This document shows positions 10,400 through 43,567 of a stretch of DNA of 64,000 bases, piece by piece (the first letter of the stretch is position 1; every line of letters begins with the position of its first letter). A program made the translations under genes and the position numbers. Under the pieces are notes generated by a model. The model was not told where the DNA came from. It did not search any database and saw nothing but the letters and a program-made list of their open reading frames with translations. Source of the DNA: Pseudomonadota bacterium (GTDB taxonomy: Bacteria; Desulfobacterota; Binatia; Binatales; Binataceae); assembly GCA_021324885.1 (NCBI GenBank), contig JAJPIF010000014.1, forward strand, positions 62,001 through 126,000, in the 5' to 3' direction.

Positions 10400-11716
10400 T
10401 CAATAGTTTACCAGAGCGATAAAGATGTCGGAGACATTTGTACCTGTGGGACCGGTCTGGAACAAATCGCCGCATTCTTTAAACAGCGCGTAGGAATTGT
10501 TGCGGGCCAGATATTCGGATGGACTGCGCCCCGCTGCACGGGCGCGCGCGACCGTCTGCGAGCTGGCGAAAGCGCCGGCCGCGTCAGTGGGTCCGTCAAT
10601 TCCGTCGGTTCCCGCACACAACGCGACGATGCGCGCGTGCGGCGCGAGGCGATCGAGCTCGATGGCCAGCGAAAGCGCCAATTCCTGAGCGCGTCCGCCC
10701 TTTCCGCTGCCGCGCACCGTAACCACGGGTTCCCCGCCCGCCAGCACGCATCGATTCTCACCGCTCAATGCGCTCAGATGGGCCGCCAGCGCACGGCCGA
10801 GGTCGGAGGCTTCGCCATAAAGTTCCCGCCATCGCTCGACCTTGTAACCTAGCGACGACGCCGCGACCGCCGCACCATCCAGGGCGGCGGCGTTGTCGCC
10901 AATAATAATGTTGGTCGCGCGCTCCAGAACCGGATCGCCCGGTTTGACGGTTTCTTCAAAGTCTCCGGCCGCACCCGCTTCCAGATGTTCCCGCACTCGT
11001 TCCGGCGTGCGGCCCCACAGCGAATGGCGAATCAGAACGCCGCGCGCCTCTTCGTAGGTGGTCCGGTCGGGGGCGGTCGGACCGGAGCCGATCGTGGCCA
11101 GGTCGTTGCCGCGTACGTCGGACAGAATCAGGCTGAGGACTTGCGCCCCGTGGCAATGGCGCAGCAGGCACCCGCCCTTGATCGCCGACAGATGCTTGCG
11201 CACGGTGTTAACCTCGATGACTGACGCGCGCGCCCGCAAAAGCGAGTTGGTCACCGCGATTTTGTCTTCCAGCGTCACCGGTTCGGCCGGTGCCGCGAGC
11301 ATAGCGGAGGCGCCGCCGCTGAGCAGGACCAGCAGCAGGTCCTCGGGCGTCAACCCGTCAACCATCGCCAGCGCCGCGAGCGCCGCGCTGACCGAGTTAT
11401 GGTCGGGGATCGGATGGCCCGCGCGGAAAATCCGGGTGGCGGCAATTTCGCGCGTCTCGCCCGCCGGTACGACAGCGACGGACGCGGCGATGCGTCCTGC
11501 CAGTTGCTGATTGGCCGGATACAGCATCCGCGACGCCGCCTTGCCGACCGCCAGGACAAACACGCGTTTGGCCCCGGCAATCAGATCGGGCACGGTTTGC
11601 GCCCCGTTCAGTTCACCGCGCAATGCGGCTGCGGTGAGGCGGTCGGGCGCGACCGCGTCAAGCGCGGCCTGAAAAATACGCACCAGATGCTCGCGGGCCT
11701 GATTCTCGAACTGCAT
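10400..11716 (-). CDS. Glycerate 2-kinase (MOFRL/DUF4147 family)
   Basis: 438 residues with an N-terminal DUF4147 domain and a C-terminal MOFRL domain. Signatures include VFVLAVGKAASRM near residue 50, VLLSGGASAMLAAP around 128, the NTVRKHLSAIKGG motif and the C-terminal GTDGIDGPTDAAGAF motif. The family was first annotated as hydroxypyruvate reductase (TtuD/GckA) but members tested are ATP-dependent glycerate 2-kinases that feed 2-phosphoglycerate into glycolysis. It is the first gene of the long minus-strand run, divergent from ggt, and is followed after 24 bp by isocitrate dehydrogenase. Confidence 0.92.
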   Translation of the reverse strand: MQFENQAREHLVRIFQAALDAVAPDRLTAAALRGELNGAQTVPDLIAGAKRVFVLAVGKAASRMLYPANQQLAGRIAASVAVVPAGETREIAATRIFRAGHPIPDHNSVSAALAALAMVDGLTPEDLLLVLLSGGASAMLAAPAEPVTLEDKIAVTNSLLRARASVIEVNTVRKHLSAIKGGCLLRHCHGAQVLSLILSDVRGNDLATIGSGPTAPDRTTYEEARGVLIRHSLWGRTPERVREHLEAGAAGDFEETVKPGDPVLERATNIIIGDNAAALDGAAVAASSLGYKVERWRELYGEASDLGRALAAHLSALSGENRCVLAGGEPVVTVRGSGKGGRAQELALSLAIELDRLAPHARIVALCAGTDGIDGPTDAAGAFASSQTVARARAAGRSPSEYLARNNSYALFKECGDLFQTGPTGTNVSDIFIALVNY

Positions 11717-11898
11717 TGTGCTGGTTTAGTTTATCAGCCCCGTCAGCCTTCCAAAACGGCCCGCTCAGGGACCGCGGCCAGGCCTCGCGGCACTTTCTTC
11801 CCGCGCCGATGGCTGTTACTAACACAGGACGCGCGCGGAGTTGCTGCAGCGGGTCGGCTTTTGGGACTCGCCCGGGTAATTCCACGCCATGGACGTGT

Positions 11899-13572
11899 AT
11901 GAAACGGATTATGTGGAAGAGCCGCGTGAGCCTCCTGGCGGCGCTATGGCTGGTGCTTGCCGCAGCCGGGGCCGCCCCTGCGGTGATTGCCAAACACGCG
12001 ATGGTGGCGGCGGAACATCCGTTGGGTGCCGATGCCGGCGTGCGGATTCTCAAAGCCGGCGGCAACGCGGTGGACGCGGCGGTGGCGACCGGGCTGGCCG
12101 TGTGCGTGGCCAATCCTTCCTCGTGCGGGATCGGCGGGGGCGGCTTCATGCTGATCTACATGGCGCAGACCGGCAGGATTTACGCGCTCGATTTTCGTGA
12201 GACCGCCCCACACGCGGTCACCGAATCCACTTTCATGCGCAACGGCAAACCGGATGAGGCCCTCTTGCGCAAAGGGCCGCTTGCGGTCGCTGTTCCGGGT
12301 CAGGTCGCCGGGTTTGAAGCGGCGCTCAAGCGTTTTGGCACAATGAAGTTTTCGCAGGTCGCGCAGCCCGCGATCGAACTGGCTCGCGACGGCTTTCCCT
12401 GCGGCGAGCATCTGGCCAAAGAAATCGCGCGCACCGCCCCCCTTCTGACCCAGGACGAAGGCCTGAAGTCAGTTTTCCTCCATCCCGACGGTTCTCCCCG
12501 CAAGGAAGGCGAGACCATCACGCAACCCGAACTGGCCGCGACGCTGCAGGCGTTCGATGACCATCCGGTGGAGACCTTTTATCACGGTGAACTGGCCGCC
12601 CGGATTGCCGATTTCGTCAAAGGGCGGGGTGGAGTCCTGAGCGCGGAGGATCTCGCTTCATACAAATCAATCTGGCGCGCCCCGCTCCATCGCGGCTACC
12701 GCGGCTACCAGGTTTACTCGATGCCGCCGCCGTCTTCGGGCGGCGGGATGCTGCTGGAGGCCCTGGAGATCCTGGAGCCGGGCGGCACCCCCGGACTGGG
12801 GCTGAATTCCCCGCCTTACCTGGCGCGGCTGATCGAGACGATGCGCCAGATCTTTATCGACCGTGCGATTTTCTACGGCGATCCGGAATTCGTTCGCGTG
12901 CCGATCGATTTTTTGCTCTCGCCCCAGCGCATCGACGGCATCCGCCGCAAGGCTTTCCAGATTCATCCTCCCGCCGCGGTGCCGGAAGCTCCGCGCGATC
13001 ACGGGACATCCCATCTTTGCGTGATTGACCGTCAAGGCAACATCGTTTCGCTTACGACCACGATTAACACCGCCTTTGGCGCCAAGCTGACGGTCCCGCA
13101 CACCGGTATCGTTCTCAACAATGAGATGGACGACTTCGCGCTGGCGCCGGGTATCGCCAACGTCTATGGACTGCGGGGCTCGGGTCCCAACTCGATCGCT
13201 CCGGGCAAGCGACCGCTGTCCAGCATGACTCCCACTATCGTGCTGAAAAGCGGCTCGCCGGTTTTGACGGCGGGAGGATCCGGTGGACCGACGATTGTCA
13301 CCGCCACCTTGCAGGTGCTGCTCAACGTGCTCGATTTCCACCTTGACGCCGAACGCGCGATTCGCTCCCCGCGCATCCACGACCAGTACTATCCCGCCGC
13401 GGTTTTCGTGGAGGATGCGATGCCGGTGTCGGTGCGCGACGCCCTGGCCGAAATGGGATTTCAGATCAAGGCGGTGCCGATGCTCGGTGATGAAGAGGCG
13501 ATCCAGATAACTGCCGACGGTTACGTCGGCGCGGCCGATCCGCGCAAGGGGGGCGCGGCTGTCGGTTATTAG
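11899..13572 (+). CDS. ggt: Gamma-glutamyltransferase
   Basis: 557 residues with a signal peptide (hydrophobic about 10-28, AAPAVIA boundary), so it acts in the periplasm. GGT cleaves gamma-glutamyl bonds in glutathione or poly-glutamate. The precursor cuts itself before the catalytic threonine T370 in RDHGTSHLCVID, giving large and small subunits. GNAVDAAVATGLAVCV and GIGGGGFMLIY are N-terminal family marks, and the small subunit has NNEMDDF and PGKRPLSSMTPTIV. The open frame reaches back to a TTG at 11716, but only the ATG at 11899 (or the one four codons later) puts the signal peptide at the N-terminus. The ArnT-like gene follows after 52 bp. Confidence 0.95.
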   Translation: MKRIMWKSRVSLLAALWLVLAAAGAAPAVIAKHAMVAAEHPLGADAGVRILKAGGNAVDAAVATGLAVCVANPSSCGIGGGGFMLIYMAQTGRIYALDFRETAPHAVTESTFMRNGKPDEALLRKGPLAVAVPGQVAGFEAALKRFGTMKFSQVAQPAIELARDGFPCGEHLAKEIARTAPLLTQDEGLKSVFLHPDGSPRKEGETITQPELAATLQAFDDHPVETFYHGELAARIADFVKGRGGVLSAEDLASYKSIWRAPLHRGYRGYQVYSMPPPSSGGGMLLEALEILEPGGTPGLGLNSPPYLARLIETMRQIFIDRAIFYGDPEFVRVPIDFLLSPQRIDGIRRKAFQIHPPAAVPEAPRDHGTSHLCVIDRQGNIVSLTTTINTAFGAKLTVPHTGIVLNNEMDDFALAPGIANVYGLRGSGPNSIAPGKRPLSSMTPTIVLKSGSPVLTAGGSGGPTIVTATLQVLLNVLDFHLDAERAIRSPRIHDQYYPAAVFVEDAMPVSVRDALAEMGFQIKAVPMLGDEEAIQITADGYVGAADPRKGGAAVGY

Positions 13573-13624
13573 TGTGCGGCCGTCTCACCTCGCGCCCGCA
13601 CATCCGGTAGACTCCAACGATTGT

Positions 13625-15310
13625 ATGACGGCTGGTAGCTCTCAAGCCGCGGCCCCGGTTTTATCTGGCCCCGATACTGGCGCGCCGGCGCCGATGAGCA
13701 GGCGCGAGGTGGCGCAAGCGGCCGCGCTTGGCCTGCTCGGCCTGGTGGTATTTTTCTTCCATCTGGGCAGCTACGGTCTGTTCGAGCCCGATGAGGCGCG
13801 CTATGCCGAGATCGCGCGCGAGATGATCGCGACCGGCAGTTTCATCGTTCCTCATCTCAACTATGTTCCCTATATCGAAAAACCGCCGTTGCTTTATTGG
13901 ACGACGTCGCTGGCCTTTTACCTGCTGGGCACCACCGAATTCGCGGCCCGGCTGGTTCCCGCGCTGAGCGCGATGGCCGGCGTGGTCGCTACATGGTGGT
14001 TTGCGCGCCGCACCTTTGGCTATCGCCGCGCGATGCTGGCCGCCGCGATTCTTATCACCAGTCCGTTGTACGCGGCGATGGCGCAGGTGCTTACCACCGA
14101 CATGCTGCTCACCGCGTGCCTGGCCGTCACCTTTTTCAGCCTGTTCCTGCAATGGCGCGAAGGCGGGCGCTGGTGGATGGTTTCATACCTTGCGATGGCG
14201 CTGGCGGTCCTGACCAAAGGTCCGGAGGGAGTAGTGCTCCCCACTGTGGCGGCGATCCTGTTCTTACAACGCCGCCACGAGTTAAAAGGTGCGCTCGCCC
14301 GCTTTCATGCCTGGGGCGGGCTGCTGATCGTGCTGGCCGTGAGCTTGCCGTGGTTTGTAATCGTGGCGGCGCGCCTGCCGGGTTTTCTTTATTTTTATGT
14401 CGTCGGTGAGCATTTCAAGCGCGCTTTCGAAGCCAGCTACAGTCACGACCAGCCTTTCTATTTCTATCTGCCCGTGATTATTGCCGGGATGCTGCCGTGG
14501 TCGATTTGTATGCCGCTGCTCACGCGGGGAACGCGCGGGTCTGCGCGTTCGTGGTGTGGATGTTCGGCGGTGGTCGTGCTGGTGTTGTTTTCGATCGCCA
14601 ACGCCAAGCTGATCCCGTATGTCCTGCCCGCGCTGCCGCTGCTGGCTGTGCTGCTGGCCGACTCGATCTTGTGCGCCGTCGAAAATGGCGGCGCGGCGCT
14701 GGTCAAGTGGCTCGGACCGGCATTGTGTATCGGCGGGATCGGCGCGATCGTGTTCGCCGCCCTCGCACCGATGATTCACAATCGCGATATTGCCTTGCTG
14801 CCGCGCGTCATCGCAGTATCGGGCGCGATAATTCTGATTGGCGGATTATGGTCATCCTGGGAGCTGTGGCGCGAGCGTTTCGAGCGGGGACTGGCAATAA
14901 TCGCGCTTGCTGCGGCGTCGGTGCTGATTGCTGCAACTTATGGCCGTATCGATGTCCAGGCGCTCCATTCCTGGGCGCCGCTGGCGCGAGCGATCCAATC
15001 CCGCGCGCCTTCGGCGACCCTGATCGACTACCATCGCTATCCCCAGGCGATTGCGTTTTACACTCGCCGCCGCGTGCTGGTGGCCGGTCCCTTTCTCAGC
15101 GAACTGAGTTTCGGTGCGGCCCATAGCGCCGATCGCGAACGCTATTTTCCCGCCACCGACTCCGACCTGATCGCCCGCTGGCACAAGGAGCAGTCCGCAG
15201 TGTTGATTATCGACCAGAGCGATTACCGGCGGCTTGCGCCCCAGTTGGGGCCGGCGCGGATTATCGCCAGCCAGGGACATAAACTGGCCGTGGCCAGGGA
15301 GCCGGGCTGA
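13625..15310 (+). CDS. ArnT-like GT83 glycosyltransferase (lipid-linked sugar transfer)
   Basis: 561 residues, a polytopic GT-C enzyme of the ArnT/PMT type. The first extracytoplasmic loop has the family catalytic motif FEPDEARYAEIAREM, followed by EKPPLLYW. It then has a run of about a dozen hydrophobic segments and a soluble C-terminal part (about 460-561). Relatives move a sugar from an undecaprenyl-phosphate carrier to a lipid such as lipid A. It is separated by a single base from the hpnL-like gene (TGA, G, ATG), so it is probably translated together with it. A role in decorating a hopanoid or lipid A is therefore inferred. A second ArnT-like gene is at 41759-43567. Confidence 0.88.
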   Translation: MTAGSSQAAAPVLSGPDTGAPAPMSRREVAQAAALGLLGLVVFFFHLGSYGLFEPDEARYAEIAREMIATGSFIVPHLNYVPYIEKPPLLYWTTSLAFYLLGTTEFAARLVPALSAMAGVVATWWFARRTFGYRRAMLAAAILITSPLYAAMAQVLTTDMLLTACLAVTFFSLFLQWREGGRWWMVSYLAMALAVLTKGPEGVVLPTVAAILFLQRRHELKGALARFHAWGGLLIVLAVSLPWFVIVAARLPGFLYFYVVGEHFKRAFEASYSHDQPFYFYLPVIIAGMLPWSICMPLLTRGTRGSARSWCGCSAVVVLVLFSIANAKLIPYVLPALPLLAVLLADSILCAVENGGAALVKWLGPALCIGGIGAIVFAALAPMIHNRDIALLPRVIAVSGAIILIGGLWSSWELWRERFERGLAIIALAAASVLIAATYGRIDVQALHSWAPLARAIQSRAPSATLIDYHRYPQAIAFYTRRRVLVAGPFLSELSFGAAHSADRERYFPATDSDLIARWHKEQSAVLIIDQSDYRRLAPQLGPARIIASQGHKLAVAREPG

Positions 15311-15311
15311 G

Positions 15312-16334
15312 ATGTCCGGCGCGCCAGCCAAATTTGAACCGGTTGCGGCCTCCGAACCGGTGCGCGAGCGTCGCGCAATCGGCAGCTACGTACTCAAGGC
15401 GGTCCTGGGCGTCGCTATCCTGAGCTTCGTGCTGAGCCGCGTGAACCTGCATCAGCTGGTCCATCTGCTGACGCGCGAGCGCCCCGCCTATTTTCTGGCC
15501 GCCACGCTGATCTACGTGGCGGGCCAGATGGTGGCGGCATATCGATGGCGGATGCTGGCGCGCATGGTGGGTATTGTCGGCAGGTACCTGGAGTTTCTGC
15601 TCTATTTCTTTATCGGCGCGTTTACCAATCTGTTCGTTCCCGGATTGATCGGCGGCGATGCGGCACGGGCGCTGTACCTGGGCCGACGCCATCGCCAGAT
15701 TGGCAAGGCGGTCGCCTCGGTGGTCGCCGACCGTGCTTTTGGCCTGCTGGCGCTGATCTGGCTGACCGCGGTGTGCGTGGCGATACTTGGACGCGGGGTT
15801 TTCCCATCCTCCATCACCACCCCGATCGTCCTGATCGGCTTGGGTACGGCCGCCGGCTATCTTCTGATGCCCCTCGTATCCGGATTGGAGAAATACCTGC
15901 CCCGCCGTATCGCGGCGACGGTCGCGATGCTCTCGCCTTACCTCAATGGACGAATCGCGCTGCTGCCCGTGATCGGTCTTTCTCTCCTCCTTCATCTGAT
16001 CCAGGTGGCCGCGCAATACGTCCTCGGGCTGGGTCTGGGCCTGAGTTTTCCGGTGTGGATGTTTCTACTGTGCGTACCCACGACCAACACCCTTGCGTCG
16101 GTGCCGATCACGTTTAACGGCCTCGGAGTGCGTGAGGGGATGTACGTGGTGCTGTTTGGGATGGCCGGAGTGGGCAAAGCCGACGCCGCTGCGATGGGCC
16201 TGCTCTGGTTTGGGATTACCACCTTCGCAGGTCTGTGCGCCTCGGCCGCCTTCATCGCGGCGCCGACCCCAATCGAACGTCAGGCGCCGCTTGATAAGCG
16301 CGCTTCGGAAAGCTCGGGTAACCGCCCAAAATAG
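15312..16334 (+). CDS. HpnL-like membrane protein (lysylphosphatidylglycerol synthase TM family)
   Basis: 340 residues, a membrane protein of the PF03706/UPF0104 family (YbhN, AglD, HpnL). It has about eight hydrophobic segments and the family motifs TNLFVPGLIGGDAARALYL (about 110) and a C-terminal NGLGVREGMYV. HpnL proteins occur in hopanoid gene clusters and are thought to move lipids or modified hopanoids between membranes, without direct proof. Its partner genes here are the coupled ArnT-like transferase upstream and hpnJ 118 bp downstream, so I read it as the hopanoid version. A generic flippase-like function cannot be excluded. Confidence 0.82.
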   Translation: MSGAPAKFEPVAASEPVRERRAIGSYVLKAVLGVAILSFVLSRVNLHQLVHLLTRERPAYFLAATLIYVAGQMVAAYRWRMLARMVGIVGRYLEFLLYFFIGAFTNLFVPGLIGGDAARALYLGRRHRQIGKAVASVVADRAFGLLALIWLTAVCVAILGRGVFPSSITTPIVLIGLGTAAGYLLMPLVSGLEKYLPRRIAATVAMLSPYLNGRIALLPVIGLSLLLHLIQVAAQYVLGLGLGLSFPVWMFLLCVPTTNTLASVPITFNGLGVREGMYVVLFGMAGVGKADAAAMGLLWFGITTFAGLCASAAFIAAPTPIERQAPLDKRASESSGNRPK

Positions 16335-16452
16335 TCGATTTTGCCGGGAAAATGCCCTGTCGCTCGCTCTGATAGGGATTTAACTTGCCTTAGTGTAAGC
16401 GCGTTTGTAACATTGGACTAACCAATCGGACAGGATGTTGTGAGGGGCCTGC

Positions 16453-17892
16453 ATGGATTACATGAAAACCTTGTTCCTTAATCCCCCGTCTTACGACGAT
16501 TTTGACGGCGGCGCGGGCTCTCGCTATCAGGCAACTCGCGAGGTGTGGTCCTTCTGGTATCCAACCTGGTTGGCTTATCCGGCCGGAATGATCCCTGGAG
16601 CGCGGCTGCTCGATGCTCCACCGCATGGCTACAACCTCGCCCGCACGGTCGAGGAAGCCAAAAACTACGATTTTATTGTGCTCCACACCTCGACGCCGTC
16701 GCTGCGGATGGACAGCCGGACGGCAGAGGCGATCAAGGCCGCCAATCCCAATGCGATCATTGCCTTTGTCGGCGGCCATCCGACGGCCGCCCCCGAGGAA
16801 ACGCTCAAAGTTTCAGAAGCGATCGATATCGCCGGGCGCAAAGAGTTCGACTATTCGATGGTCGAAGTGGCGCAAGGGATGGATTGGAGCCGGATCGGCG
16901 GTATCAGCTACCGCAAAAACGGCGTGATATCGCATAATCCCGACCGCCCCCTGATGACGGGCGAGGAACTCGATCGGCTGCCCTTTGTCACCGAAGTTTA
17001 CCATCGCAACCTCGATTACCTGAAATACAACAGTCCGTACTGCCAGTATCCCTACGTCTCGATTTATACGGGGCGCGGATGCCCGGCCAAGTGCACCTTT
17101 TGCCTGTGGCCGCAGGTGACGCAGGGCCATAGCTATCGCACCCGCAGCCCCGAGAACGTTTACGAGGAAGTGGCGGCGATGAAGGCCAAATTTCCCAAAA
17201 TGAAGGAGGTCTTCTTCGACGACGATACCTTTACCGCCGATCCTCCGCGCGCCCGCAAAATCGCGCAGTTACTCAAGCCGCTGGGAATTACCTGGTCAAC
17301 CAACTCCCGCGCCAACGTCGATTTCGAAACGCTCAAGATCCTCAAGGAAGGCGGACTGCGGCTGTTCGTGGTCGGCTACGAAAGCGGCAACGCGCAGATT
17401 CTCAAGAACATCAAAAAAGGCGTCGGGCTGGAGCGGGCGCGCCGCTTCACCAAAGACTGCCACCAGCTCGGCATCCTGATCCACGGCACCTTCATCCTCG
17501 GGCTGCCCGGCGAAACCAAAGAGACTATCGAGGAATCGATCCGCTTCGCCCGCGAGATGGACTGCGAAACCATCCAGGTGTCGCTGGCCTCGCCGTATCC
17601 GGGCACCGAACTGTTCCGCCAGGTCAGCGAAGCCGGCTATCTGGCGGTCGATCCTCTGCTGGACGAATCGGGTTACCAGCGTTGCACGGTCAACTACCCG
17701 GGATTAAGCGCGGATGAGATTTACGGCGCGGTCGAGCGCTTCTATCGCAGCTTTTATTTCCGTCCCCGCTATATTTTCAAATCGCTGCGCAAGATGGCGA
17801 CCTCGACCGAGGAGTGCAAGCGCCTGGTGAAGGAGGGAGTCCAGTTCATCTCCACCATGCGCCAGCGGCGGGCGCAGTCGGCTTCAGCGTAA
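16453..17892 (+). CDS. hpnJ: Hopanoid biosynthesis radical SAM protein HpnJ
   Basis: 479 residues. The N-terminus LFLNPPSYDDFDGGAG with REVWSFWYPTWLAYPAG is the HpnJ signature, on a B12-binding-like domain (about 1-160). The radical SAM core follows with the 4Fe-4S cysteines C210, C214 and C217 in GRGCPAKCTFCLW. HpnJ is reported to contract the glucosaminyl group of bacteriohopanetetrol glucosamine into the cyclitol ether, acting after HpnI (sugar transfer) and HpnK (deacetylation). HpnI follows 246 bp downstream on the same strand; no HpnK (YdjC-type) gene is in the window. The start is ATG 16453, with an alternative ATG three codons later (MKTLFLN), which is how relatives often begin. Confidence 0.93.
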   Translation: MDYMKTLFLNPPSYDDFDGGAGSRYQATREVWSFWYPTWLAYPAGMIPGARLLDAPPHGYNLARTVEEAKNYDFIVLHTSTPSLRMDSRTAEAIKAANPNAIIAFVGGHPTAAPEETLKVSEAIDIAGRKEFDYSMVEVAQGMDWSRIGGISYRKNGVISHNPDRPLMTGEELDRLPFVTEVYHRNLDYLKYNSPYCQYPYVSIYTGRGCPAKCTFCLWPQVTQGHSYRTRSPENVYEEVAAMKAKFPKMKEVFFDDDTFTADPPRARKIAQLLKPLGITWSTNSRANVDFETLKILKEGGLRLFVVGYESGNAQILKNIKKGVGLERARRFTKDCHQLGILIHGTFILGLPGETKETIEESIRFAREMDCETIQVSLASPYPGTELFRQVSEAGYLAVDPLLDESGYQRCTVNYPGLSADEIYGAVERFYRSFYFRPRYIFKSLRKMATSTEECKRLVKEGVQFISTMRQRRAQSASA

Positions 17893-17896
17893 GGCG

Positions 17897-18142
17897 ATGG
17901 TTCAGGGGCAAACGCAACTTGAACTGCGGTTGGATTTGAATGCATCGCGACGGCGGCCCTGTGTTGGTCCGGAATTTCACCTGGATGCGAAACCTGGTCT
18001 CCGTCCGCAATCGCTGATGACAGGGGCAGGGCCGGAGAACCATTTTGTGGTTCGTGAACTGGCTCAAGGGGAACTCTTGAACCGATTGGCTGGCTTTAAC
18101 CGTATATTTTCCGGTGCTTCGGCGCGCGGGTGCTCCCAATGA
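17897..18142 (+). CDS. Possible small ORF between hpnJ and hpnI
   Basis: An 81-codon open frame starting 4 bp after the hpnJ stop, with its own stop codon overlapping the hpnI start (ATGA at 18139-18142). This spacing is what a co-translated small gene would show. Against it, the predicted protein has no family I recognise, no membrane segment and no signal peptide. Its third codon positions are only moderately GC-rich compared with the neighbours. It is either a lineage-specific small protein of the hopanoid operon or an intergenic stretch open by chance. Confidence 0.25.
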   Translation: MVQGQTQLELRLDLNASRRRPCVGPEFHLDAKPGLRPQSLMTGAGPENHFVVRELAQGELLNRLAGFNRIFSGASARGCSQ

Positions 18143-19392
18143 ATTGGCTGCGTGACCTGGCGCTTGCCGGGATTTTTATCTCCGCCGGTTATTACGCCGC
18201 CACCGTTGCCGCGGCCTATCGATTCAGAAAACGGGCGTCGGCGCCGCCGCGCCCGCTGCCGAAAATCGCGCCGCGCGCCGTCCTGCTGAAACCGCTTCAC
18301 GGCGTCAACGACAGCCTGGCCGATAACCTGCTGAGCTTCATGGAGGTCGATTATCCGCGCAAGGAATACGTGTTCGGCGTCTCCAGTTACGAGGATCCGG
18401 CTGTTCACGTCCCGTTGGCGATCAAGCCGCGCTATCAGACCTCGCAGATCACGCTGACCGTGGGCGGCGATCCATCGGCGGCCAACCGCAAAATCGGCAA
18501 GCTGATCCGGATGGTGCCGCGCGCCACAAGGCCCGATGTTTTCGTCCTCAGCGACGCTGACATCGCCGTCGAAACCGATTATCTGCGCCGCGTGATCGGC
18601 GACCTGTACGCGGACGACAAACTGGGGCTGGTCACCTGCGCGTACCGCGCGCGGCCCTCCCGCCCCGACCTCGGCGGGCGCCTGGAGGCGCTTTATATCA
18701 ACACCGACTTCATGCCGATGGCGATACTGGCGGACACCTTCGAGCCGCTCCATTACGCTTTCGGCGCGACCATCGCCATCAAACGCGAGGTGCTGGAGGA
18801 AATCGGCGGCTTCGAAGCGATCAAGGATCTGCTCGCCGACGATTTCCATCTGGGAAACCGCGCCGTCCAGCACGGCTATAAAATCGGCCTTTCCAGCGCC
18901 CTGGTGACAATCGTCCCGGGCGAGCGCACCTTCTCCGATTTCTGGCACCATCAATTGCGATGGGCCCGGACCTATCGCACCGTGCGCCCGATAAGCCTCG
19001 GCACCATTCTCACCCACGGTCCCTTCTGGGCCGTGCTGCTGGTGCTCAGTGGCGGATTGAGCGCGGGCTCAATTGCGATTGCGGCGGCGGCGGTCGCGGC
19101 ACGGCTGGCGATGGGCGCGGCGATGATCAAGGGTCTGGCCAGGCTGCCCTTGTCGCTGTCGGATCTCGGCCTTCTGATCGTTAAGGACTTCTGCATCACG
19201 GGAATCTGGTTCGCGAGCCTGCTTGGCAACACCGTGCGATGGGGCCAGCGGCAGTACAGGATCACTGCGGACGGCCGCCTCGAAGAGATCCGCTCGCAGG
19301 CAATCCAACCGGCTCAGGAGGCTTCCCAGCGTCAAGCGCTGAGCGCGATGGCGTCCCCTGAAATCTCAGACGCTTCGCCCGGTACCCGCTGA
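18139..19392 (+). CDS. hpnI: Hopanoid biosynthesis glycosyltransferase HpnI
   Basis: 417 residues, a membrane-anchored GT2/GT21 enzyme related to ceramide glucosyltransferase. It has an N-terminal membrane helix (about 7-28), the LLKPLHGVND start of the catalytic domain, the DxD-like SDADIAVE, a third acidic motif in LADDFHLG and the HHQLRWAR motif. In this last motif histidine occupies the place of the Q/R of the usual (Q/R)XXRW. Hydrophobic C-terminal helices follow. HpnI adds N-acetylglucosamine to bacteriohopanetetrol, the first step towards glucosaminyl and cyclitol-ether hopanoids. I start at the ATG of MNWLRD rather than the GTG three codons upstream. The gene ends 35 bp from a convergent acyl-CoA dehydrogenase gene. 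Confidence 0.92.
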   Translation: MNWLRDLALAGIFISAGYYAATVAAAYRFRKRASAPPRPLPKIAPRAVLLKPLHGVNDSLADNLLSFMEVDYPRKEYVFGVSSYEDPAVHVPLAIKPRYQTSQITLTVGGDPSAANRKIGKLIRMVPRATRPDVFVLSDADIAVETDYLRRVIGDLYADDKLGLVTCAYRARPSRPDLGGRLEALYINTDFMPMAILADTFEPLHYAFGATIAIKREVLEEIGGFEAIKDLLADDFHLGNRAVQHGYKIGLSSALVTIVPGERTFSDFWHHQLRWARTYRTVRPISLGTILTHGPFWAVLLVLSGGLSAGSIAIAAAAVAARLAMGAAMIKGLARLPLSLSDLGLLIVKDFCITGIWFASLLGNTVRWGQRQYRITADGRLEEIRSQAIQPAQEASQRQALSAMASPEISDASPGTR

Positions 19393-41758: not shown

Positions 41759-43567
41759 CTACGTCGAACCATCCTGCCGCCGAAGCAGCAGCATGTTGCC
41801 GGTACCGTCCAGGTAGGTTGGGCCGCTTTTCAAAACCGGCAGATAATCACGCATCTGTCGCGAGGCCAGGGCCTTGTAGGTGTCCTCGCCGACTATCAGG
41901 TACTCAGGCCAGCGCGCGGGATCGATGGCTACGACCGGAATAGTCATTCCACTGTAAAATGCGACATCATAGTTGAGTCCGAAAACATAGGCGGCCTTTG
42001 CCGTGCCGATAGTGCGCGCCGCCTGAGCGGCGAAATCCCTGAGAGTGATTGTGTTGGCGGTCGCGGGGAGCACGTACAGATTTGCCACCATCGAAAGGCA
42101 CGCAACCCCAGCCGCGGTGCAGGCCGCGAATTTGCCCGGCCCCGGAGCGGTTCGAGCCAGCAGATAGCCAATGGCGATCATGGCGGCGGCGATTGCCACA
42201 ACCGCCAGTCCATGGGCGCTGATCGCGGCGGCGAGCTGCGGTACGAACCCCGACGCCTTGATATCAAAGGCGGCCAGCGGTTTGCGCGCAAGATCGGGCC
42301 AAAGTTTGATCAGAGCGGCGCCGATTACACCCGCTATCGCCGCCGCGGCGAAGAACAGTCCCATCGCGGCCGACAGGATGCGCATGCACACTGGCGTTGA
42401 GATTCGCTCGAGTTCCCCGGCCAGATAAAGTCCGGCCATCGCGGCCAGCGCCGGATACAACGCAAGCAGGTAAACGCCGCGTTTGGCCTCGGCGAAGCTG
42501 TAGAACAGCAGGACGACGGCCAACCAGATCACGAGATAACGCAGGCGCGGATCGCGCGTCTTATCGCTGCGGGCCAGATGGAAAATTACGGCCGGCAGCA
42601 GGAGCGACCACGGCAGAAACCCGGCGAGCAGGGCCAATTCGACGAAGTAAAACGGATGGCCATGGCCGGGGTTCATCCCGGCGCGGTTGAGATAGGTATA
42701 AACATTTTCAGCCAGGATCTGTTTGTCAAAAAAGGCTTTGCCCCCGATCATGATCGCGGCGCCATACCAGCCGCCGGCCAGCACGCCCACCACGATCGCG
42801 CCCTTCACCAGATCGAGCCGCGCCAGCAGGTTTAATCGGCGCTCGACAGCCATAAACACCAGCGCGACCAGCGCGGGCAACACCACGCCGACCGGACCTT
42901 TGGCCAGCACCGCGAGGGCGAGCGCAAAATAAAGGGGCAGCCGGCGCGCGGTCAAATCCTCCGCTATCATCAGGAACTCGAAAAACGCGACTTCCATGAA
43001 AAAGGTCAGCGTCATATCGACCCGCGCGCCGCCGGCGGCCTGAAGATACTGGAAATTCGTGGCCAGGATGAGTGCGGCGAACAGGCCTGTGGCGGCGCTG
43101 AACAACCTGCGCACGTACAGATAGCAGCAAAGCACTCCCAGCGTCGCCAGGATCGCCGAAGGGAGGCGAATCGTCCATTCACCCAGCCCGCCGCTGATCA
43201 GCGCAAGTGACGCAATCAGCCAATGCATCAGCAGCGGTTTGGAAGGAATCTCCACTCCCGCGCGCATCGGCAACAGGAATGAAACGAGGCTGTGGCCTTT
43301 GAGCATATCAAGCACGGTCACCGCCTCGCGCGGTTCGCCTTTGGTATAGAGCGGATAACCGCCCAGGTTCACGAAAAAAGCGCTCAGACACAAAAGCGTC
43401 AGCAAGGGAATGGCAAACCGCGGCGCCGCCGCCCGCTCCAACCACTGCTCGACAAACTTTGCAGCCGCTGCAGGACTTTGCGGCGCAGACCGGCTGCAGG
43501 CCGCAGGCGCGGCGCTTTGCTCGATGTCAGGGAGTCGTTGCGCTGATCCTTCCGCGTTGGTCACCAC
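41759..43567 (-). CDS. ArnT-like GT83 glycosyltransferase 2
   Basis: 602 residues with about a dozen membrane helices. The catalytic loop LYTKGEPREAVTVLDML differs from classical ArnT (EPDEARYAE) but keeps Glu and Arg, and EIPSKPLLMHW follows. GGARVDMTLTFFMEVAFFE is typical of the helix 3-4 region. It transfers a sugar from a polyprenyl carrier to an envelope lipid or protein; the cargo is unknown. A soluble C-terminal part ends with a tyrosine-rich strand. It starts with GTG (43567), divergent from the ParB-like gene, with the strong inverted repeat at 43631-43660 between them. Confidence 0.83.
   Translation of the reverse strand: MVTNAEGSAQRLPDIEQSAAPAACSRSAPQSPAAAAKFVEQWLERAAAPRFAIPLLTLLCLSAFFVNLGGYPLYTKGEPREAVTVLDMLKGHSLVSFLLPMRAGVEIPSKPLLMHWLIASLALISGGLGEWTIRLPSAILATLGVLCCYLYVRRLFSAATGLFAALILATNFQYLQAAGGARVDMTLTFFMEVAFFEFLMIAEDLTARRLPLYFALALAVLAKGPVGVVLPALVALVFMAVERRLNLLARLDLVKGAIVVGVLAGGWYGAAIMIGGKAFFDKQILAENVYTYLNRAGMNPGHGHPFYFVELALLAGFLPWSLLLPAVIFHLARSDKTRDPRLRYLVIWLAVVLLFYSFAEAKRGVYLLALYPALAAMAGLYLAGELERISTPVCMRILSAAMGLFFAAAAIAGVIGAALIKLWPDLARKPLAAFDIKASGFVPQLAAAISAHGLAVVAIAAAMIAIGYLLARTAPGPGKFAACTAAGVACLSMVANLYVLPATANTITLRDFAAQAARTIGTAKAAYVFGLNYDVAFYSGMTIPVVAIDPARWPEYLIVGEDTYKALASRQMRDYLPVLKSGPTYLDGTGNMLLLRRQDGST

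Follow-up and report, generated by a model that had tools for sequence, protein, structure and literature searches.

In the described route to bacteriohopanetetrol cyclitol ether, HpnI attaches GlcNAc to bacteriohopanetetrol, HpnK then removes the acetyl group, and HpnJ converts the product to the cyclitol ether (Schmerk 2015, as summarized in PMC12583986). No function is assigned to HpnL, the flippase-like protein encoded in other hopanoid clusters, and when hopanoid clusters of Alphaproteobacteria were surveyed, no extra nearby candidates turned up beyond hpnA, hpnB, hpnL, and hpnM (PMC12583986). In Pseudomonas aeruginosa, gpgSDF encodes a GlcNAc transferase, a deacetylase, and a UPF0104 protein that act on one and the same lipid; the flippase activity of GpgF is itself unproven (PMC12713373). 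Our literature searches on hopanoids with ArnT, with Binatota, and with EamA returned nothing on an arrangement like the one described here, and no hopanoid glycosylated from a polyprenyl carrier. We know of no settled route for amino-sugar hopanoids across the inner membrane.

Here we describe a locus from an uncultured member of the Binataceae from soil (genome G000; assembly of 4.5 Mb, 96% complete). The window, meaning the whole 64,000-nucleotide stretch analyzed, is part of contig C1. On the plus strand it carries, in order, genes for a gamma-glutamyltransferase (gamma-GT; 11716-13572), an ArnT-like GT83 polyprenyl-phosphate-sugar transferase designated ArnT1 (13625-15310), a PF03706 membrane protein designated FlipL (15312-16334), HpnJ (16453-17892), and HpnI (18139-19392). 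The gamma-GT scores 483.7 bits against the TIGR00066 cutoff of 357.85; its coordinates are those of the longest open reading frame, and the real start may be more internal. An earlier note on this DNA overlooked this gene, a member of the conserved block. The order and strand that it gave for the other genes stand, and two of its distances are exact: a single base separates the ArnT1 stop (TGA at 15308-15310) from the FlipL start (ATG at 15312), and 118 bp lie between the FlipL stop at 16334 and the hpnJ start at 16453. Its name for the FlipL gene ("hpnL-like") was wrong, and its absence of hpnK proved to be an effect of the window.

HpnJ, a radical SAM protein that binds B12 and acts in bacteriohopanetetrol cyclitol ether synthesis, matches the full TIGR03471 model (positions 1 to 471) with 710.5 bits against a curated cutoff of 577.6, and its translation contains a CPAKCTFC motif. 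HpnI, the glycosyltransferase that places GlcNAc on bacteriohopanetetrol (Pfam Glyco_transf_21), is full length and falls slightly below the TIGR03472 cutoff (295.1 versus 310 bits, model positions 6 to 372); TIGR03472 is by far the best model for this product, and hpnI adjoins hpnJ here as in Binataceae loci wherever the contig permits. A second HpnJ-like radical SAM protein, at 354 bits and below the cutoff, is encoded in one relative (G013, C204:1083-2540). The 81-codon open reading frame that the earlier note placed between hpnJ and hpnI exists (17897-18142, plus strand, its stop overlapped by the hpnI ATG at 18139) and matches no family. Because tblastn of 40 relative loci gave zero matches and the corresponding gap between the hpnJ and hpnI reading frames of a congener (G002) is ~96 bp, it is probably not a gene.

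A search of the whole genome for YdjC proteins found two genes, on contigs C14 and C25. The C14 gene (C14:81287-82123; match at C14:81293) is hpnK, with 224 bits for Pfam YdjC and 241.5 to 241.7 bits for TIGR03473 against a cutoff of 232.6, and it adjoins an HpnG-like gene. As a squalene-hopene cyclase gene is also present, on C22, the cyclitol-ether module is complete for these steps. The two congeners of G000 (G001 and G002) both read gamma-GT, ArnT1, FlipL, hpnJ, hpnI, pepN, hpnK, hpnG, which puts hpnK ~4.5 kb past hpnI; in G000, by contrast, hpnG, hpnK, and pepN lie on C14, away from the five-gene block, so hpnK and hpnI were separated by a rearrangement inside the genus. The second YdjC gene, on C25, scores below both cutoffs and about the same on the HpnK and chitin-disaccharide-deacetylase models. 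It overlaps an ArnC-like polyprenyl-phosphate-type GT2 gene (L002 1456-3070; C25, ~133.9 to 135.5 kb), and the pair adjoins a gene for a large membrane protein. This could be a separate carrier-linked amino-sugar system, comparable to NaxD/FlmK of Francisella.

FlipL is a stand-alone MprF-type flippase domain of the UPF0104 group (PF03706, 121.5 bits; TIGR00374, 77.5 versus 43.2 bits). We ruled out an HpnL identity: the product gave no match to the HpnL model TIGR03476 at E ≤ 1e-3, and the gene in this genome that fits the model best lies elsewhere (C2:97482, 140.2 bits, under the cutoff of 195.65). This C2 gene (L162 7483-8532) lies near DNA replication genes, away from hpn genes. Best matches to the HpnL-type reference do lie near hpnIJK in several Binatia families other than Binataceae. 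A structure model of FlipL (21 homologs, mean pLDDT of 87.9) aligned with the flippase domain of MprF (6lvf) at a Z score of 24.2 over 284 residues and 3.5 Å (FlipL residues 17 to 320), while the next unrelated row of the fold search reached only 5.5; the model assigns FlipL the MprF transmembrane flippase fold. The FlipL family is mostly single copy in Binatia. In other Binatia families its homologs (~28 to 35% identity) lie away from hpnJ, and their neighborhoods held no common partner except purA-serA in two genomes.

ArnT1 combines the Pfam domains PMT_2 and Arnt_C and matches crystallized ArnT in sequence (5ezm, E of 1e-52) and fold (5f15, Z score of 44.2 over 520 residues at 2.4 Å); it scores 195.9 bits on the ArnT equivalog model NF009784, below the cutoff of 567. 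Its reading frame has an alternative, longer GTG start at 13574. Residues D56, E85, K86, and D159 are invariant in 18 of 18 ArnT1 orthologs, as is the equivalent of R58; the first four align with D55, E84, K85, and D158, which we take to be the active-site residues identified in the 5ezm work. At the position aligned with H265, which we take to be a metal ligand of crystallized ArnT, 17 of the 18 orthologs carry Gly and all seven sequences of another paralog, ArnT2, carry His; arn-operon ArnTs vary there (H, E, Q, or D). The ArnT-like gene of the earlier note thus has the fold and catalytic residues of ArnT, but it is a second paralog, confined to Binataceae. In a GT83 tree whose deeper branches are weakly resolved, the ArnT1 orthologs form one Binataceae-only clade (support of 100), separate from ArnT2 and from the arn-operon ArnTs. 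A further ArnT/PMT_2-like gene in the window (42164-43405, minus strand) encodes a product 32% identical to ArnT1, and a PMT_2 gene beside hpnK in one relative (G038, L166), considered as a possible ArnT1, was rejected as a remote paralog.

ArnT1 is not beside arn genes. ArnT2, ~31 to 36% identical to the window ArnT1, is the GT83 enzyme encoded within ~6 kb of arnD in at least 23 relatives. G000 has a cluster of arnC, a formyltransferase gene (ArnA N-terminal type), a UDP-sugar SDR gene, and arnD on C14 (L003 1029-4971; C14:71028-74970), ~6 kb from hpnG-hpnK, and no arnB gene adjoins the cluster at this locus. Given this gene set for carrier-linked Ara4N, a carrier-linked sugar is probably available to the cell, and lpxC, found in 36 of 38 genomes, indicates that lipid A is there to act as acceptor.

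To place this arrangement in its family, we surveyed 41 Binataceae genomes, 39 of which have both ArnT1 and hpnJ. In 29 of these, ArnT1 and hpnJ share a strand and are no more than 3.6 kb from each other, and in 10 they are apart; the assemblies are mostly fragmented metagenomes, so that a few linked calls were judged from genes truncated by contig ends and the separations in G034 and G019 may partly be contig breaks. The earlier note had made conservation of the ArnT-like gene beside FlipL and hpnJ in relatives the point on which its proposal turned, and within Binataceae that conservation was found. The other window genes that flank the block occur in none of the relatives' loci, congeners included, and this, together with the 29 linked genomes of 39, places the linkage beyond chance. 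On a tree of ArnT1, HpnJ, and HpnI, four to five separations account for the present distribution, and ancestral linkage is therefore the simplest history; after a separation, gamma-GT, ArnT1, and FlipL usually remain together, as do hpnJ and hpnI. FlipL is absent genome-wide from four genomes that retain ArnT1 and from between ArnT1 and hpnJ in two more, and in five of these six ArnT1 still adjoins hpnJ. Of the 80 best matches in a scan of species genomes, those with the ArnT1-hpnJ arrangement were all from Binataceae, and in five other Binatia genomes the nearest homologs (37 to 40% identity) lie beside arn genes or elsewhere, never beside hpnJ. The association of hpnJ-hpnI with an MprF-type flippase and a second ArnT paralog is conserved and restricted to this family.

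Other genes recur in the same neighborhood. The gamma-GT gene lies upstream of ArnT1 on the same strand in ~29 genomes, and enoyl-CoA hydratase and SMP-30 genes are found near the block in many. In 25 Binataceae (L041 3390-4286, minus strand, and 24 other loci), the next gene downstream of hpnI encodes an EamA-family transporter; it stays with hpnI where ArnT1 is elsewhere, and it is absent from G000 and its genus. In G018, which has ArnT1 without hpnJ, the EamA gene is located at the extreme end of its contig (5903-6751 of 6943), so hpnI-hpnJ were probably left unassembled; we dropped this genome as evidence against coupling. Because gamma-GT, enoyl-CoA hydratase, EamA, and SMP-30 genes recur as well, part of the gene order was probably inherited without function.

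We give an even chance to a reading in which the standard HpnI-HpnK-HpnJ cyclitol-ether pathway stands beside a lineage-specific module for periplasmic lipid glycosylation, the two lipid-decorating modules having stayed neighbors from the common ancestor of Binataceae onward. In the first module, all on the cytoplasmic side, HpnI would attach GlcNAc to bacteriohopanetetrol, HpnK, encoded elsewhere in the genome, would take off the acetyl group, and HpnJ would contract the sugar to the cyclitol ether. In the second, by analogy with gpgSDF, FlipL may bring either an amino-sugar lipid or a carrier charged with sugar through the inner membrane, at whose periplasmic face ArnT1 may move a polyprenyl-phosphate-linked sugar onto an envelope lipid. 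Both the substrates and the sequence of steps are inferred here, as is any coupling of function between the modules. Lipid A or lipopolysaccharide as the acceptor of ArnT1 comes close to an even chance; a hopanoid is less likely and doubtful, with other acceptors making up the remainder. In favor of the two-module reading are the completeness of the first module, the folds of ArnT1 and FlipL, the invariant active-site residues of ArnT1, the arn and lpxC genes, the ancestral linkage, the cohesion of gamma-GT, ArnT1, and FlipL after most separations, and the gpgSDF precedent. The four genomes that keep ArnT1 without FlipL count against it, as do the gamma-GT, enoyl-CoA hydratase, and SMP-30 genes that share the neighborhood.

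The strongest alternative couples the neighbors directly: FlipL would flip an amino-sugar bacteriohopanetetrol (the glucosamine or the cyclitol ether), and ArnT1 would add a second, carrier-linked sugar in the periplasm. The linkage in 29 of 39 genomes fits this proposal, as does the contact between ArnT1 and hpnJ in the five genomes without an intervening FlipL. Three further points fit as well: at least 23 genomes have an arn-linked ArnT paralog to serve lipid A in the usual way, ArnT1 has Gly at the H265-aligned position where every ArnT2 has His, and the GpgSDF and HexSDF systems couple a UPF0104 protein with a glucosamine lipid. However, ArnT1 is retained in all 10 genomes in which it lies far from hpnJ, so that across some four to five losses of linkage the GT83 gene was never lost with it. 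Other Binatia families with hpnI and hpnJ are without the ArnT1 arrangement, lpxC points to lipid A synthesis in 36 of 38 genomes, and the literature searched yields no such hopanoid. We consider this coupling unlikely, and still less likely its full form, an undescribed composite hopanoid that the MprF-type flippase flips and that an ArnT paralog dedicated to hopanoids caps with a polyprenyl-phosphate-linked (amino)sugar.

Alternatively, the genes may be neighbors by ancestry only, in an inherited and slowly decaying order, in which case ArnT1 would be unrelated to hopanoids and would modify lipid A or some different acceptor. The gamma-GT, enoyl-CoA hydratase, and SMP-30 genes, which have no obvious role in lipid decoration, are the reason to think that gene order may reflect ancestry alone: the unrelated gamma-GT is as tightly associated with ArnT1 as hpnJ is, the other two recur nearby together with EamA, and linkage was lost four to five times. 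Yet the block persists where the other flanking genes of the window are missing from all relatives' loci, even those of congeners, and between G000 and G001/G002 it moved as a unit relative to hpnK, pepN, and the arn genes, which makes descent alone improbable as the whole account. A variant route without deacetylation, in which ArnT1 and FlipL replace HpnK, was implied by the earlier argument from a window without hpnK and is hardly credible, refuted by the above-cutoff hpnK on C14 and in nearly all Binataceae.

With the two-module reading preferred, hopanoid transport or glycosylation by FlipL and ArnT1 in Binataceae is possible but not established; the gene pairing is a reasonable lead to it rather than evidence. 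A family-wide GT83 paralog and an MprF-type flippase beside hpnJ-hpnI are candidates for the membrane crossing of hopanoids and for their carrier-based glycosylation, and both could be tested in a culturable hopanoid producer. Because the Alphaproteobacteria survey saw nothing beyond hpnA, hpnB, hpnL, and hpnM, the neighborhood is new information from a different phylum even if the acceptor of ArnT1 is lipid A.

Compared with known systems, FlipL shares the PF03706 superfamily and a position beside hpnJ with HpnL (TIGR03476) but goes unmatched by the HpnL model, for which another gene is the genome's best match. Its PF03706 domain and its modeled MprF transmembrane fold (Z score of 24.2) resemble MprF and UPF0104 proteins such as GpgF (PMC12713373); unlike MprF, it is without the lysyl-PG synthase domain, and unlike in gpgSDF, the genes for its GlcNAc transferase and deacetylase partners, if these are hpnI and hpnK, do not all lie next to its own. 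ArnT1 resembles ArnT, the GT83 transferase of 4-amino-4-deoxy-L-arabinose to lipid A (5ezm, 5f15), in whole-length fold and in its catalytic acidic and Lys residues, and differs in its 26% identity, its equivalog score (196 versus 567 bits), its position away from arn genes, and its Gly at H265. The locus agrees with the HpnI-HpnK-HpnJ pathway in that hpnI adjoins hpnJ and that hpnK and squalene-hopene cyclase are in the genome; it departs from it in the unlinked hpnK of G000 (~4.5 kb from hpnI in congeners), in a window HpnI slightly under the curated cutoff, and in the GT83 and flippase genes upstream of hpnJ.
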